Positions 584 through 11,682 of a stretch of DNA of 12,275 bases are shown piece by piece. The position numbers were made by a program, and so were the translations under genes. The stretch spans positions 1 through 12,275 of the forward strand of contig JAKBAC010000102.1 in NCBI GenBank assembly GCA_021809365.1, in the 5' to 3' direction. Source of the DNA: Planctomycetota bacterium (GTDB taxonomy: Bacteria; Planctomycetota; Phycisphaerae; WQYP01). How positions within the stretch are numbered: the stretch's first letter is position 1; the number at the start of each line of letters is the position of its first letter. The notes below the pieces were generated by a model. It was not told the origin of the DNA and did no database searches. It worked only from the letters and a program-made list of their open reading frames with translations.

Positions 584-589
584 CTCCTT
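584..589 (-). promoter_or_regulatory. Ribosome binding site of the small membrane protein gene
   Basis: Read on the minus strand, AAGGAG lies 8 bases before the ATG at 575-573. This is a full-strength Shine-Dalgarno match at good spacing. It fixes the start codon and is a main reason to accept the gene as real. Confidence 0.7.
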
Positions 590-678
590 ATGTAAGCTTG
601 TCGATGCCTGGGCCTCCGTTCTCACCTGAAATTTCGGCCGCAACATACGGTTGCCGCCACACGCAGGAATACTTAGCA

Positions 679-693
679 GCAAATTCTGTGCCA
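679..693 (-). promoter_or_regulatory. Sigma-54 (-24/-12) promoter for the small membrane protein gene
   Basis: On the minus strand the sequence reads TGGCAC, five bases (AGAAT), then TTGC followed by T. The invariant GG and GC doublets are exactly 10 bases apart, and the site matches the sigma-54 consensus TGGCAC-N5-TTGCW. The predicted transcription start is about position 667, some 90 bases before the ATG at 575. Genes with such promoters need an activating ATPase bound upstream. The closest copy of the TTCGATGCA repeat is about 245 bp upstream of this start site. Confidence 0.7.
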
Positions 694-867
694 TAGATTG
701 CGTGTCCCTCTTTTTGTATGATGCCTACAAGCTTTTGGGACTTTACGCTCATAAGCGATTGCCTCAATATTCCACGATCCATTTTGCAGTGCCGAAATAA
801 TGTTCAACTGGCGGCTGCTTTACTGCACAGTATTGAATCAACTTCGAGAAATCCTGCCCAAGAAATA

Positions 868-900
868 GACAGGCACTTGGGGACGGCCCTTTTTTTGCCA
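868..900. repeat. Possible REP-like repeat fragment
   Basis: The stretch contains GACAGGCAC, then GGGGACGGCCC and a run of seven T. Similar GGGGAC-plus-T-run sequences occur as dispersed repeats near IS200/Y1-type transposase genes in several bacterial groups, as far as I recall. Here it is a single copy, with no transposase nearby. The hairpin it could form (GGG with CCC, GGCA with TGCC) is too weak to call a terminator. The identity is a guess from motif style. Confidence 0.2.
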
Positions 901-907
901 GGATTGA

Positions 908-916
908 TTCGATGCA
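908..916 (+). repeat. TTCGATGCA site 1, candidate activator site
   Basis: First of three exact TTCGATGCA copies between the divergent sigma-54 promoters. It continues as TTCGATGCATGAAC, the least symmetric copy. It lies about 245 bp upstream of the predicted minus-strand start site and about 345 bp upstream of the predicted plus-strand start site. Confidence 0.35.
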
Positions 917-1094
917 TGAACTGAATTAGATGCCGCCGATGCGTTGTATAGCTCTGCTGTGGTGAATGCCCGCGATGCTTCCAGGTTGCTGCGGAAATAG
1001 CAATGACCTTAAAAGTTCGCAAAATAAAAGAAATACTGCCCACAGTTTCAACGTGTTTCGGTTTTCTGTGCATAAAACAGGCAGAGGGGGTGAA

Positions 1095-1108
1095 TTCGAT
1101 GCACGGAA
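1095..1108 (+). repeat. TTCGATGCA site 2, candidate activator site
   Basis: The sequence TTCGATGCACGGAA agrees with the palindrome TTCGATGCATCGAA at 12 of 14 positions. Its centre is about 153 bp before the predicted transporter start site, within the usual range of sigma-54 activator sites. It is 38 bp from site 3. Confidence 0.45.
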
Positions 1109-1132
1109 TCGCTCCGGGCTGGAAGGTAGCAT

Positions 1133-1146
1133 TTCGATGCATCTAA
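1133..1146 (+). repeat. TTCGATGCA site 3, candidate activator site
   Basis: The sequence TTCGATGCATCTAA differs from the perfect palindrome TTCGATGCATCGAA at one position, so it looks like a dimer binding site. Its centre is about 115 bp before the predicted transporter start site. It does not resemble the enteric NtrC site TGCAC-N7-GTGCA beyond the short TGCA core, so the regulator may be a different activator. Confidence 0.45.
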
Positions 1147-1228
1147 GCGTATTAATGTGGCGATACTTTGAATTCCGCAGGCTTTTTTGCCCCTTTACCT
1201 ACTGGCCACGGCCAGGCTCCGGCCATTG

Positions 1229-1243
1229 TGGCACAACAATTGC
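1229..1243 (+). promoter_or_regulatory. Sigma-54 (-24/-12) promoter for the ammonium transporter
   Basis: TGGCAC, five bases (AACAA), then TTGC followed by A matches the sigma-54 consensus, with GG and GC exactly 10 bases apart. The predicted transcription start is about position 1255, giving a leader of about 300 nt before the Amt start codon. Control of ammonium transporter genes by sigma-54 and NtrC-type activators is well established in Proteobacteria, so the gene context supports the site. Confidence 0.78.
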
Positions 1244-1254
1244 ATTAATCCACG

Positions 1255-1556
1255 CAGTAATCGGTTGGCGTTGACGGCTTCCCGGACGGAAGCATCAAAG
1301 CCTTGAATTTCATTAAAAAGCCACGTGGGCTAGTGCGCCTGCTCACTCGCAGGATGATTTTAGTCGGTGTGCCGCAGATGCAAAGCGGCTCCGCGACGCT
1401 TGCAGAAGATGCTTTGAGCCTTACCGGCTCGTAAGGAGGTGATCTTATTTACAAGACCCTGTGCTAAGTGTTCAAAAGACAGTTCCGCACCCGTGTGTAT
1501 CGGGTGAGCAAGGAGAGCTGCGACTGACAAGATCGTTCGCTAAGAGGTATTTGAGT
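1255..1556 (+). promoter_or_regulatory. Long structured 5' leader of the ammonium transporter mRNA
   Basis: Several local hairpins can be read: TTGA/TCAA plus GCTTCC/GGAAGC (1271-1298), AGCC/GGCT (1319-1331), CCTGC/GCAGG (1338-1353), GCCGC/GCGGC (1371-1389) and GAGCC/GGCTC (1416-1430). The last overlaps a rival hairpin, CCTTAC (1419-1424) with GTAAGG (1431-1436), which would pair the start of the strong Shine-Dalgarno sequence at 1433. The two cannot form together, as expected of an RNA switch. No known riboswitch core was recognised. A frame open over 1261-1434 has an ATG at 1354 and would give a 26-residue peptide ending at the Shine-Dalgarno sequence, but that ATG lacks a proper ribosome binding site. 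Confidence 0.35.
1433..1444 (+). promoter_or_regulatory. Perfect 12-nt Shine-Dalgarno sequence without a normal start codon
   Basis: AAGGAGGTGATC is fully complementary to the conserved 3' end of 16S rRNA. At normal spacing there is no ATG, GTG or TTG, only ATT at 1447, which would open a 6-codon frame ending at TAA 1465-1467. The next in-frame start for the transporter is GTG 1461, 21 bases beyond GGAGG, which is too far. It may be a ribosome standby site, a leader-peptide start, or a remnant of a lost gene. Confidence 0.4.
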
Positions 1557-3112: not shown

Positions 3113-3149
3113 GGGCGGTCAAGGTGCCTACCTTGACCGCCCTTTTTTT
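3113..3149 (+). terminator. Strong rho-independent terminator after the ammonium transporter
   Basis: A 13-bp perfect stem, GGGCGGTCAAGGT (3113-3125) with ACCTTGACCGCCC (3130-3142), has a GCCT loop and is followed by seven T. It ends the amt transcript about 30 bases after the stop and separates it from the next gene, which therefore needs its own promoter. Confidence 0.95.
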
Positions 3150-4513: not shown

Positions 4514-6469
4514 ATGTTTTGGCAACAGGCCTTTGCACCACGGGAATCGGCGAAGAAAAGCAAAGCTCTGAAATCCGATGGCGGTATTCCGGTCGCCCTG
4601 CCTGAATCCGTGCCTTTTACCGCCACCTACGCCTCTGATCCCGACTTCATTCGTTTACGCCTGGAATTGGAAAAACTCAAACTGCTTCGCGGCTTTGATG
4701 AACTGCTGTGTCTGGAGGGACTTCGGGGGGTGGATCAACTGCCGCATCAGATTGAAACCGTGCGCAAGGTGTTGCGGTATTTTCATGGGCGCGTGCTGCT
4801 GGCGGATGAAGTGGGGCTGGGAAAAACCATCGAGGCCGCTTTGTTGCTGCGGGAATATGTGCTCCGGGGAATGATTAAACGCATTCTTATTCTTGTACCC
4901 TCGCCGCTGACGGGACAGTGGCGGGATGAGTTGTCCGGTAAATTTGATCTGGATTTTGACCTTGCCGCTTCCGGCTGGAATCGCGATCATTGGACCCAGC
5001 GCCAGCGGGTTATCGCGTCCATTTCCCTGGCGAAAAGTCGGCGGCATTTTGATCTCTGCTCGGCTGATCCCTGGGATCTGGTGGTCGTGGATGAAGCCCA
5101 TCATTGTAAAAACCGCACCACGCGAAACTGGCAACTGGTCAATGCGCTGAAACGTCGGCATATTTTCCTGCTCACCGCCACGCCGGTGCAGAATAACCTC
5201 ATTGAACTGTACAACCTGCTGACCCTATTGGAACCGGGGCATCTGAAAACCGAATCCGATTTCAAAAAGAATTTTGTCACGCGCGGTAATCCACGCGATC
5301 CGCGCAACCGCCGGGTTCTGCGGGATTTGCTTTCCCAGGTGATGGTCCGCAATACCCGCAGCCTCGTGAATATTCAGTTGCCGCGCCGCTATGCCCAGAC
5401 CTTTGCAATCGAGGCCGGCGCGGAAGAGGCACAACTCTACCGCCATCTGGATTCTTATTTGCGATGGCGCTGCCAGCCGCTGCATGCCCAGCCTGGCCGA
5501 GAGGAAGACAATAACTCAGGCGACGCCGAGCAGGCCATTGAAGAATCATCCGTGCTGGCGAGCATTTCCGAAGGCGTCGTGCAAAGTTCCGCCGCGCACG
5601 AGCGTGCGGACAGATTCTTACCCGGGGCCGGGGCGGGCAAATGGGCGACCCTGGAAGAACTTTGGCGGTATCCTCCGGACGATCTTCCGCTGCTGAACCG
5701 CTTGCAGATTAACGCCGTTCTCATGGCCGCCGGCAGTCATCCACTGGCTTTGCGTCCGGCATTGGAGCGTCTGGGCGTGCAGGATCCGCGGGTTGCACCA
5801 TTGCTGCAACTGGCAAGGGATCTGACTCAATCAGCCAAGGAAACCAAGCTGCTTGAACTGCTGAAGAAAAACCAAACGGATAAAACACTGGTGTTCGCGA
5901 ATTTCCGCGCAACGCTTGATTGTCTGGCCGGATTGCTGGAGCGCCACGGGATACGCTTCGTACTTTTCACCGGCAGCCAAAGCCAGTTGGAAAAGGAAAT
6001 GGCCATTGATCAATTCCGGCATGACGTGCCGGTGATGCTCTGCTCTGATTCCGGGGGAGAAGGTTTTAATCTGCAGTTCTGCAATACGCTCATTAACTTT
6101 GATCTGCCGTGGAACCCCATGCGCATTGAGCAGCGTATCGGGCGGGTGCACCGCATCGGGCAGACGCGCGACGTTTTTGTTTTCAATTTATGCACGCGCG
6201 GTTCGCTGGAGGAAAAAATTCTGGCTGTGCTCAACGACAAATTGCGAATGTTTGAACTGGTGGTCGGAGAAATCGGTTCCATTCTCGGCAACACGGAAAA
6301 TGGGGAGGATTTTGAGTCGCTGGTGCTGAATCTATGGATCAAATCCGCCGGTCCCGCCGAACTGGATACAGCCTTTGATGATCTTGGGGACACTTTGGTG
6401 CAGGCCCAGGGTGACTATCTCAAAACCAAGGAACTGGACGAAGCACTATTCGGGGAGGATTTTGCTTGA
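4514..6469 (+). CDS. SNF2/RapA-type helicase-like ATPase
   Basis: The 651-residue product has all the motifs of a SNF2-family ATPase, motors that move along double-stranded DNA to remodel bound protein. Visible are LADEVGLGKTIEA (Walker A Lys104), ILILVPSPLTGQW, VVVDEAHHCKN (DEAH at 193-196), FLLTATPVQNN (TAT at 221-223), KTLVFANF, CSDSGGEGFNLQ and the arginine finger block EQRIGRVHRIGQ (about 539-550). The ADEVGLGKTIEA form is that of RapA/HepA and of DISARM-type helicases. About 70 residues of low-similarity sequence (322-391) sit between the two motor domains. I prefer ATG 4514 because GGAG lies 6 bases upstream; ATG 4457 would add 19 residues and has a weak site. The downstream gene starts inside its stop codon, so the two products probably act together. 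No endonuclease or methylase gene adjoins it. Confidence 0.9.
   Translation: MFWQQAFAPRESAKKSKALKSDGGIPVALPESVPFTATYASDPDFIRLRLELEKLKLLRGFDELLCLEGLRGVDQLPHQIETVRKVLRYFHGRVLLADEVGLGKTIEAALLLREYVLRGMIKRILILVPSPLTGQWRDELSGKFDLDFDLAASGWNRDHWTQRQRVIASISLAKSRRHFDLCSADPWDLVVVDEAHHCKNRTTRNWQLVNALKRRHIFLLTATPVQNNLIELYNLLTLLEPGHLKTESDFKKNFVTRGNPRDPRNRRVLRDLLSQVMVRNTRSLVNIQLPRRYAQTFAIEAGAEEAQLYRHLDSYLRWRCQPLHAQPGREEDNNSGDAEQAIEESSVLASISEGVVQSSAAHERADRFLPGAGAGKWATLEELWRYPPDDLPLLNRLQINAVLMAAGSHPLALRPALERLGVQDPRVAPLLQLARDLTQSAKETKLLELLKKNQTDKTLVFANFRATLDCLAGLLERHGIRFVLFTGSQSQLEKEMAIDQFRHDVPVMLCSDSGGEGFNLQFCNTLINFDLPWNPMRIEQRIGRVHRIGQTRDVFVFNLCTRGSLEEKILAVLNDKLRMFELVVGEIGSILGNTENGEDFESLVLNLWIKSAGPAELDTAFDDLGDTLVQAQGDYLKTKELDEALFGEDFA
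6452..6458 (+). promoter_or_regulatory. Ribosome binding site that sets a TTG start
   Basis: GGGGAGG lies inside the end of the helicase gene, 7 bases before TTG 6466 and 19 before ATG 6478. The spacing supports TTG as the true start of the second gene and indicates translational coupling with the helicase. Confidence 0.6.
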
Positions 6470-7476
6470 GCCAGGCCATGGATCAGCGTCTGAAAACATT
6501 CGCCGTGTCGTTGTTGGAGCGCAACGGCGGACTTGTGGAATGGCCGGCGTATCTTAAAAGCGGTTTTGCCGTTCTGCCTTCCGGGACCGCGCAACTTCTG
6601 GAATGCCCGGAAAATACGGAAATCACCGCGGAATCCGTCAATTCCGGCCTGACGATTAATCTTGCCTCGATGTTTTTGCAGCGCACAGAGCGTCTGTTTC
6701 CCCCTGACGCTTCGGCCATCTGCCTGAAAATTGATGCCCTGTATCTGAAAAAGTCCGCGATGGATGAACCGGTCGCACGGGCCTTCGCGTTTCCCAATAC
6801 GCGGGTAAAAGTCATCGGTGCTTCGGCGGATCGCGTGGAGTATCAGTTCTGGCATTTTGCCGCCGCCATTGAATCGGACGAGAAATGGGAGGACGTAATC
6901 AGCCTCGCAAGAAACAGCCGCACCGGGGCCATGTTGGACCTGCCTGATCCCTTAACGAATTATGACGCGCATCCCACGCGCCCCGATGAGACGACGCCGG
7001 ATATGACGCGTGTTATGGCCCAGGCCGCCGCTGCGGCCGCCAGGCGTTCGCAGGCGTTCGTCCAGCGCCTGGAAGAGCGGATGGATCGGGACATGAAGCG
7101 GCTCAAAAGTTATTATCATGCACTGGTGGATGACGCGGCGGATCATAAAATCCGCGGGGCGGCAGACATGGAAAAGTTAGATGCCCGTACCCGTGCGGTT
7201 GAACTGGAACTTGAGCGGAAGACCGATGAATTGCGCGATCGCTATACGCTGCGGCCCGTCCTGCGTCCCGTGGCACTGGTCAGGCTTGATGCCCCGGCTC
7301 TGAGAGTGGAACTCAACGTCCAGCGCCGCAACGCGGAAAAGCGAATCGGCGTTTACTGGAACGCGGTAACCAAAGCACTTGAACCGCTGGCCTGTTCAAA
7401 GTGCGCCGCCGACAGTTTCACAGTTTATTTTGATGACCAACTCCAGACACTTTGTGCCCAATGCGCCAAGGCGTGA
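6466..7476 (+). CDS. Helicase partner protein with coiled coil and zinc-ribbon-like C-terminus
   Basis: I do not recognise a named family. The 336-residue product is soluble, with no signal peptide or membrane segment. An N-terminal domain (about 1-170) is followed by an Ala-rich helix and a highly charged coiled coil (about 183-262, with QRLEERMDRDMKRLK and ELELERKTDELRDRY). At the end CSKC (310-313) and CAQC (330-333) form a likely zinc ribbon. The TTG start at 6466 overlaps the helicase TGA and has GGGGAGG at ideal spacing. The tight coupling suggests a subunit or regulator of the helicase, for instance a nucleic-acid or RNA-polymerase binding arm; that is inferred from context. The layout could also represent a single protein split into two genes, since the coiled coil and zinc ribbon resemble accessory C-terminal parts of large helicases. 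Confidence 0.75.
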   Translation: MSQAMDQRLKTFAVSLLERNGGLVEWPAYLKSGFAVLPSGTAQLLECPENTEITAESVNSGLTINLASMFLQRTERLFPPDASAICLKIDALYLKKSAMDEPVARAFAFPNTRVKVIGASADRVEYQFWHFAAAIESDEKWEDVISLARNSRTGAMLDLPDPLTNYDAHPTRPDETTPDMTRVMAQAAAAAARRSQAFVQRLEERMDRDMKRLKSYYHALVDDAADHKIRGAADMEKLDARTRAVELELERKTDELRDRYTLRPVLRPVALVRLDAPALRVELNVQRRNAEKRIGVYWNAVTKALEPLACSKCAADSFTVYFDDQLQTLCAQCAKA

Positions 7477-11106: not shown

Positions 11107-11682
11107 ATGAAGCAACGAAACGTTATAACCCTGGCTCTTTTAGTCGCAACGCTGGCTTTGGCCGGATGCAAATCATTTGGGCCTATGCGCATCAAACCCG
11201 TTGGCTCCAGCAGTGGTGCGGCCCTACGTCCGGACTTTACCAGCGGATATTTCCGCTTCAGCCGTAATCAGGCCTACCATTTTATTCTTTTTGCCACGAC
11301 CCGAACTCCGCATGGCGGCACAGTGCGGCAGGTTATGATTCTGCGGGTGTTCTGGACACCGGTGCCGGGCGTAACTCCCATTGTCCGCACAGCGATTAAT
11401 GCCACGATACGCTATGTGATTTTTACACCACATGGATGCGGCATGTATCAGGGTGCCGGCTTTGTCCGACTGCATAACAGTCCGCACGCCCGGGAAATGC
11501 ACGCCTCCCTGGTACAAGGCGATTTACGCCTGACCGGTGCCAGTGGAAATTTTGTCGACGCCATAGGGCCATCACGCATAACCGGCGATTTTTCCGCCCT
11601 TCGCTCAGCGGAAAGAACCCTGACTCTGACCCTGCGCACCAAGCGCCGGTTCTTCACCGCCACACTTTCCAATGGCCGCTGA
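11107..11682 (+). CDS. Predicted lipoprotein of unknown function
   Basis: The 191-residue product begins with a lipoprotein signal peptide: basic MKQRN, a hydrophobic core, and lipobox LAGC at 18-21, so Cys21 would be lipidated after cleavage. Lys at the next position lacks the Asp that keeps E. coli lipoproteins in the inner membrane, which would fit an outer-membrane place if that rule holds here. The mature part (about 170 residues) is rich in Thr, Arg and alternating hydrophobic residues, suggesting a beta-rich fold; no family was recognised. The ribosome binding site is weak (AAAGGCG, about 14 bases upstream). It lies 126 bases after rseP and 23 before ald on the same strand, so it could share a transcript with either. 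Confidence 0.7.
   Translation: MKQRNVITLALLVATLALAGCKSFGPMRIKPVGSSSGAALRPDFTSGYFRFSRNQAYHFILFATTRTPHGGTVRQVMILRVFWTPVPGVTPIVRTAINATIRYVIFTPHGCGMYQGAGFVRLHNSPHAREMHASLVQGDLRLTGASGNFVDAIGPSRITGDFSALRSAERTLTLTLRTKRRFFTATLSNGR

Follow-up and report, generated by a model that had tools for sequence, protein, structure and literature searches.

In the 12,275-nucleotide stretch of planctomycete DNA analysed here (hereafter the window), an ammonium transporter gene (amt) and a small gene diverge from a gap of 981 bp, with a sigma-54 promoter-like sequence facing each of them. This arrangement raises the question of whether the gap is a control region shared by both genes, and whether the small protein thereby belongs with Amt to the response to nitrogen starvation.

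Two exact sigma-54 sites face outward from the gap

We scanned the whole window for the sigma-54 promoter pattern TGGCACNNNNNTTGCW (TGGCAC-N5-TTGCW). Seven matches were listed, and only the two in the gap, one on each strand, were exact; the remaining five had two mismatches each. The initial annotation had described an outward-facing pair of near-perfect sites, each facing a gene and each with GG-N10-GC spacing. The pair and its orientation were confirmed, and both sites carry the -24 GG and the -12 GC with ten bases between them that characterize a sigma-54 promoter. "Near-perfect" proved too modest a wording, as all ten consensus bases match at both sites. The accompanying judgement that two such matches in one gap are very unlikely by chance was borne out by simulation. 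Among Markov copies of the 981-bp gap, 0.4% contained at least one 10/10 site and 0 of 4,000 contained two. Per 500 bp of one strand, the chance was ~0.0017 for a 10/10 site and 0.022 for a site of 9/10 or better. Across four genomes, the slightly relaxed pattern TGGCAY-N5-TTGCW gave 70 matches vs 12 for its reversed control. The coordinates of the sites and of the other features of the region are given in Table 1.

Table 1 Features of the small gene-amt region of the window.
Feature	Position	Strand	Details
Small protein gene, 115 aa	228-575	-	Open reading frame; homologues; dN/dS; no Pfam or NCBIfam family
SD-like AAGGAG of the small gene	584-589		
Hairpin in the predicted 5' leader of the small gene	636-658 (core 640-654)	-	GCAAC-N5-GTTGC
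Sigma-54 promoter of the small gene, TGGCACAGAATTTGCT	678-693	-	Predicted start near 667; site kept in relatives
TGCCGAAATAATGTTCA, best match to the candidate enhancer motif in the gap, still weak	790-806		In an extra stretch found only in the window and L001
Conserved central block, candidate activator-binding region for both promoters	1037-1083		Kept in all clade gaps, including L002
TGCCCACAGTTTCAACG, possible half site	1037-1053		Does not score as a motif match
TGTGCATAAAACAGGCA, weak form of the candidate enhancer motif	1067-1083		Right half of the block
Sigma-54 promoter of amt, TGGCACAACAATTGCA	1229-1244	+	Predicted start near 1255; site kept in relatives
amt leader, ~300 nt, possibly structured	1255-1556	+	Includes hairpin CACCCG-CGGGTG at 1488-1506
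amt, ammonium transporter, 507 aa	1557-3080	+	PF00909, 282.6 bits; TIGR00836, 358.3 bits (cut-off 343.3)
Terminator-like hairpin after amt	3113-3142	+	13-pair stem, T-tract

The small gene and its predicted membrane protein

The product of the small gene had been called an undescribed small membrane protein, and our searches support this description. Neither Pfam nor NCBIfam yielded a family for it at E values up to 0.1, the PDB had no matching sequence up to E 1, and the 26 homologous clusters retrieved from a protein database at E ≤0.01 are all unnamed or "hypothetical". Among six clade members, dN/dS ranged from 0.04 to 0.38 and was at or below 0.10 in 10 of 15 pairs, and we therefore regard the gene as real and under purifying selection. 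Two loci, L001 (a near copy of the window) and L003 (a near copy of L004), were excluded from the conservation and dN/dS counts. An alignment of 28 sequences revealed that W10 and P15 are invariant and that P5, K19, L52 and L55 are nearly so.

The protein has a basic N-terminal segment (residues ~1-34), one long predicted membrane helix (residues 35-66) and a proline-rich C-terminal tail. An AlphaFold model of low confidence (pLDDT 60.2, pTM 0.25) contains the long helix at 35-66, a short helix at 26-32 and otherwise little structure. The helix and the basic segment preceding it would fit a single-pass topology with the N terminus inside. In the predicted leader of the gene, the core pairs of the hairpin are unchanged in all six clade sequences and outer pairs are broken in some; no compensatory changes were found among these six. 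The small gene is convergent with a stretch (26-214) resembling the 3' end of prfA, which, as a fragment, stays under the family cut-offs. The distance between the small gene and prfA is ~3.8 kb in L001 and ~1.2 kb in L002 vs ~20-25 bp in the other five loci.

The amt gene and its leader

The product of the gene on the other side of the gap scored above the cut-offs of both Amt families, PF00909 and TIGR00836. Position 1557 is the best-supported start, because in L006 a stop codon breaks the in-frame extension from the GTG at 1461 (alignments inspected by eye). Given the terminator-like hairpin that follows it, amt is probably transcribed alone.

In the amt leader, 16 of 69 predicted pairs are changed on both sides, a level reached by 0 of 500 shuffles; this apparent covariation comes from six related sequences, from which the structure itself was derived. 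No Rfam family matched the window at gathering score, and none matched positions 560-1600 up to E 5. From the 34 sources searched, a model built on the 3' portion of the leader retrieved only its six source sequences and L001, and among those sources this portion is thus confined to the window's clade.

Both sites and the pairing are kept in relatives

The relatives compared are 28 draft metagenome-assembled genomes (MAGs) of Planctomycetota, all of one order. An alignment search with the small protein identified seven loci (L001-L007), all in Planctomycetota MAGs, one of them labelled Phycisphaerales. L001 is not an independent witness, since its small protein and Amt are 100% identical to those of the window. 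In six of the seven loci amt adjoins the small gene in divergent orientation. The minus-strand site, before the small gene, is perfect in all seven, and the plus-strand site, before amt, is present in all six loci with an adjacent amt, perfect in L001 and 9/10 (TGGCAT) in L003-L007. From the 12.3-kb locus L002 amt is absent, and the sequence abutting the gap reads, by eye, like the glycosyltransferase gene of the window; yet the small-gene promoter and the central block are kept there.

Across the order, homologues of the small gene were found in 13 of 28 genomes at E ≤0.001, six of them remote (~25-53% identity). In four of the remote cases (L117-L120) two perfect sites again face outward, and amt lies downstream together with one or two glnK-like genes; the other two (L121 and L122) have no adjacent amt but a 9/10 or 10/10 site before the small gene. 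A 14th, more remote homologue (in G024, E 6e-4) is likewise divergent from amt-glnK, with two 9/10 sites. Of the 14 genomes in total, 11 have the small gene and amt in divergent orientation; the amt partner is of the amtW type in nine of these and of the amt-glnK type in G027 and G024.

Conservation of the -24/-12 elements in relatives had been proposed as a check on the promoters, and it was found on both sides. Each of the 13 homologues is preceded, at a distance of 103-160 bp, by a sigma-54 site (10/10 in 12 cases and 9/10 in one), and all 11 adjacent amt genes have a site of 9/10 or 10/10. The sigma-54 promoter is the most consistent trait of the small membrane protein. That both promoters were kept in evolution among related planctomycetes suggests a role of the protein in the nitrogen-starvation response. 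A search of 397 genomes from the class returned 15 hits, 14 homologues and one rejected, all within the order, and at the limited sensitivity of this search the family was not found outside the order. The remote hit in G016 was rejected as a homologue, as it lies in a 1245-aa frame.

A candidate enhancer motif recurs at nitrogen genes

An enhancer-binding activator, as we propose below, would open the sigma-54 promoters, and upstream regions were analysed for a shared motif. A palindromic 17-mer, TGCCTaATaATtAGGCA (consensus TGCCTaAtaaTtAGGCA), was learned from 14 of 21 regions cut, with a log-likelihood of 134 vs 28 for one shuffled set. The learning set comprised gaps of remote pairs, stretches preceding the unlinked small genes, and promoters of amt or amt-glnK, a number of these promoters being from genomes of the window's clade. 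The regions left out were the gaps of the window's type (W, L004, L006 and L007) and a167, a182a and a182b. In the learning set, both kinds of amt promoter have motif occurrences whose starts precede that of the -24 element by ~168, 116, 61 and 30 bp. The motif is present at amt-glnK and in the gaps of L117-L120 and L172, all of which belong to the learning set.

Two groups of genes from which the motif was not learned also carry it. For glnN, which encodes type III glutamine synthetase (PF12437), a score of 15 is reached in 17 of 27 upstream regions vs 0.12 expected by simulation. This count covers 27 of the 28 genomes, G013 being excluded because only the 3' part of its gene is present. For glnN outside the window's clade, 10 of 20 regions reach this score vs 0.07 expected. 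Upstream of a NifA-like activator gene (stretches of 221-700 bp), 11 of 19 do so vs 0.1 expected. As a harsher control, 269 pieces of real sequence, each 700 bp long, were scored; 1.9% attained 15, equivalent to ~0.5 of 27 and several times the simulated rate; some of these pieces flank activator genes and sigma-54 sites and may contain true sites. Scanning four genomes for a consensus version of the motif yielded no more matches than the control did (46 vs 68). In L207 (2081-4665), glnN with a 9/10 sigma-54 site and a motif match is convergent with the NifA-like activator gene. We interpret the TGCCTaAtaaTtAGGCA motif as probably the enhancer of the activator. Its recurrence at glnN and at the NifA-like gene, both outside the learning set, strengthens the proposed link to nitrogen.

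The conserved central block of the gap

Within the window's own clade, the motif over the whole gap was not significant (p 0.066-0.75; 0.105-0.33 with a refined matrix). The best match in the gap of the window, at 790-806, had p 0.04 between the promoters and 0.066 over the whole gap, and p 0.105 with the refined matrix. With this matrix, the match at 1067-1083, in the right half of the central block, was the top gap match in L004, L006 and L007 and ranked fourth in the window. Measured from its start, its distance to the -24 element of amt is 159-162 bp in the window and these three loci (162 bp in the window), vs ~167-169 bp for the sites of relatives. Because of this placement near that of the relatives' sites and its top rank in the three loci, we take it to be a decayed or specialised activator site.

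In the five clade gaps, invariant positions make up 50% of 1035-1080, 22% of 1081-1228 and 1% of 694-1034, the last value being depressed by the extra stretch present only in the window and L001. At 50%, the block is barely above the two leaders (43 and 45%). The direct repeats ATTCGATGCA (at 907, 1094 and 1132) were considered as activator sites and rejected, since they are not conserved in relatives. The block core CTGTGCATAAAACAGGCA, allowing up to three mismatches, gave 36 matches in five genomes vs 8 in the control. At zero mismatches it occurs only in the gap copies of four genomes, and the divergent gap copy of G004 was missed. We rejected CTGTGCATAAAACAGGCA as a repeated element: among 30 matches viewed, those outside the gaps were, by eye, mostly coding-like and some were common to genomes.

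A NifA-like protein is the best candidate activator

The gene for sigma-54 itself, rpoN (PF04552), was identified in all five relative genomes searched, each of which also encodes several sigma-54 activators (PF00158). The best candidate among these has GAF, Sigma54_activat and HTH_8 domains (a GAF-AAA+-HTH architecture). It resembles NifA in these domains and in having TIGR01817 (nifA) as its top NCBIfam match, and differs from it in scoring 507 bits, below the cut-off of 528.85, and in that none of the 28 genomes of the order had a nifH above its cut-off (26 had weak matches below it). NifA binds TGT-N10-ACA, and the motif TGCCTaAtaaTtAGGCA is not that site.

The NifA-like protein is 76-100% identical across 19 of 28 genomes. 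A search at E ≤1e-120 did not recover its gene from the other nine, including G024, G025, G026, G027 and G002, which bear the small gene-amt pair; G002 has a piece of the gene at a contig end, and the genomes are draft MAGs. In 8 of 11 genomes examined, an 8/10 or 9/10 sigma-54 match lies at ~-120 to -200 relative to the NifA-like gene, and these promoter candidates always lack the full -24 GG. Taken together with the motif upstream of its gene, the protein may be an autoregulated nitrogen activator.

The proposed regulon can also be compared with that of amtB-glnK and glnA in Pseudomonadota, which is under NtrC and sigma-54. The two resemble each other in RpoN promoters, upstream enhancer sites (here candidates) and the genes amt, glnK and glutamine synthetase. 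Unlike that system, none of the eight activators scored here passes the NCBIfam ntrC cut-off (TIGR01818, 558.6 bits; best score 429.6), the glutamine synthetase is of type III, and there is an additional gene for a small membrane protein. The eight were five of the eight strong activators of G001 and one each from G002, G019 and G015. The binding site of NtrC differs from the motif TGCCTaAtaaTtAGGCA. Ammonia permease and glutamine synthetase are among the sigma-54 targets in Pseudomonadota in a sigma-54 regulon survey, in whose available sections the single mention of Phycisphaerae concerns GrpE (PMC12316311).

A proposed two-way control region for amt and the small gene

Sigma-54 control of both genes is well supported, about as well as evidence from sequence can do. 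On this basis, we propose that the gap is a two-way control region with RpoN-dependent promoters directed to amt (start at ~1255) and to the small gene (start at ~667). An enhancer-binding activator located between the promoters, most likely on the block at 1037-1083, would open both by DNA looping. The best candidate would be the NifA-type GAF-AAA+-HTH protein, which seemingly controls its own gene, amt-glnK and glnN. When combined nitrogen is scarce, both amt and the small gene would be switched on, and the small protein would take part, at the membrane, in the response that governs ammonium assimilation, most likely as a partner or modulator of Amt. We consider this joint reading, of a two-way sigma-54 region, a shared NifA-type activator and a nitrogen-responsive small protein tied to Amt, to be likely, though with room for doubt. 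The analysis supports the suggestion of the initial annotation that the small protein is a candidate membrane factor of nitrogen stress. Membership of the small gene in a nitrogen regulon is probable, and a partnership of its product with Amt is our leading guess.

The most serious alternative accepts the promoter of the small gene as true and assigns it an activator and a signal other than those of amt, the gap being merely common to both. Such an activator would be available, as each genome has several activator genes, and the three small genes without an adjacent amt (L002, G019 and G015) lack a strong motif match. Those of G019 and G015 have a sigma-54 site and no motif match scoring 9 or more within ~1.2 kb, and L002 has no match above 9.6 near the small gene. 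The findings in G019 and G015 keep a separate activator in play, and in these two genomes the small gene has the gene of a response-regulator activator nearby, at 1.4 kb (L121) and 4.7 kb (L122); however, the receiver sequences of these activators differ from each other by eye, which argues against a common partner. Divergent pairing in 11 of 14 genomes, with two types of Amt, and the position of motif sites or the conserved block between the two promoters also speak against separate control, and we regard it as unlikely.

Less probable still, and in our view quite improbable, is that the divergent order is inherited synteny without function, with amt under sigma-54 control and the real promoter of the small gene serving a role unrelated to nitrogen. 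The small gene does exist without an adjoining amt (L002, L121 and L122), and the amt-glnK regions of six genomes (G006, G013, G014, G021, G022 and G023) had no small gene that we could find; simple inheritance, however, does not predict a pair that formed or was kept with both amtW-type and amt-glnK-type genes. That the sites are chance matches and not promoters is hardly credible, given their retention at all homologues and all adjacent amt genes vs a chance of ~0.002-0.02 per gene, and the 69 and 75% invariant positions within them vs 27% over the whole gap in the five clade gaps.

For the proposed action of a small protein on Amt there is a precedent in sP36 of Methanosarcina mazei. As described in the portions of the report used here, this 61-aa protein binds AmtB1 and GlnK1, is raised under nitrogen limitation, lacks a transmembrane helix and was proposed to assist GlnK1 in inhibiting AmtB1 (PMC10714827). 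The planctomycete protein differs from it in length (115 aa) and in its helix at 35-66, predicted in a low-confidence model, and does not have the features of the sP36 type as far as these are described. From the description of sP36, we can only hypothesize that the two are functionally alike. If the small protein does act on Amt, it would add a membrane-anchored player beside GlnK.

The fullest version of our proposal is a new family of bacterial, membrane-anchored Amt partners, found to date in one planctomycete order. RpoN and a NifA-like activator would direct their synthesis along with that of Amt, and in lineages without detectable nitrogenase this activator would have become the master switch of ammonium assimilation, using its own palindromic enhancer, TGCCTaAtaaTtAGGCA. 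We put this version forward tentatively and, taken as a whole, consider it doubtful. In the literature, searched mainly at the level of abstracts, we found neither the small protein described nor any account of amt being under sigma-54 in Planctomycetota. For an order met here only as MAGs, the promoters, the candidate motif, the candidate activator and the small protein together offer a testable nitrogen regulon.

Additional observations

Motif sites within one region are often ~40-55 bp apart (52 bp in the activator region of G001), a spacing that may reflect helical phasing. The far end of the amt upstream region of G023 (L177) resembles the L172 gap by eye, and this genome may carry a further remote homologue of the small gene that was missed by the searches; it was excluded from the counts. 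In L167, L169, L118, L120 and L182, the interval from the sigma-54 promoter to amt contains other open reading frames of ~180-240 aa, each with a single strongly hydrophobic stretch. Similar stretches were detected by tblastn in L119 and L174, and the amt leader of the window has none. Elsewhere in the window, two open reading frames match no Pfam family: one at 6466-7476, which overlaps the end of a gene for an SNF2-type helicase, and one at 11107-11682, whose product has, by eye, a lipoprotein-like start.
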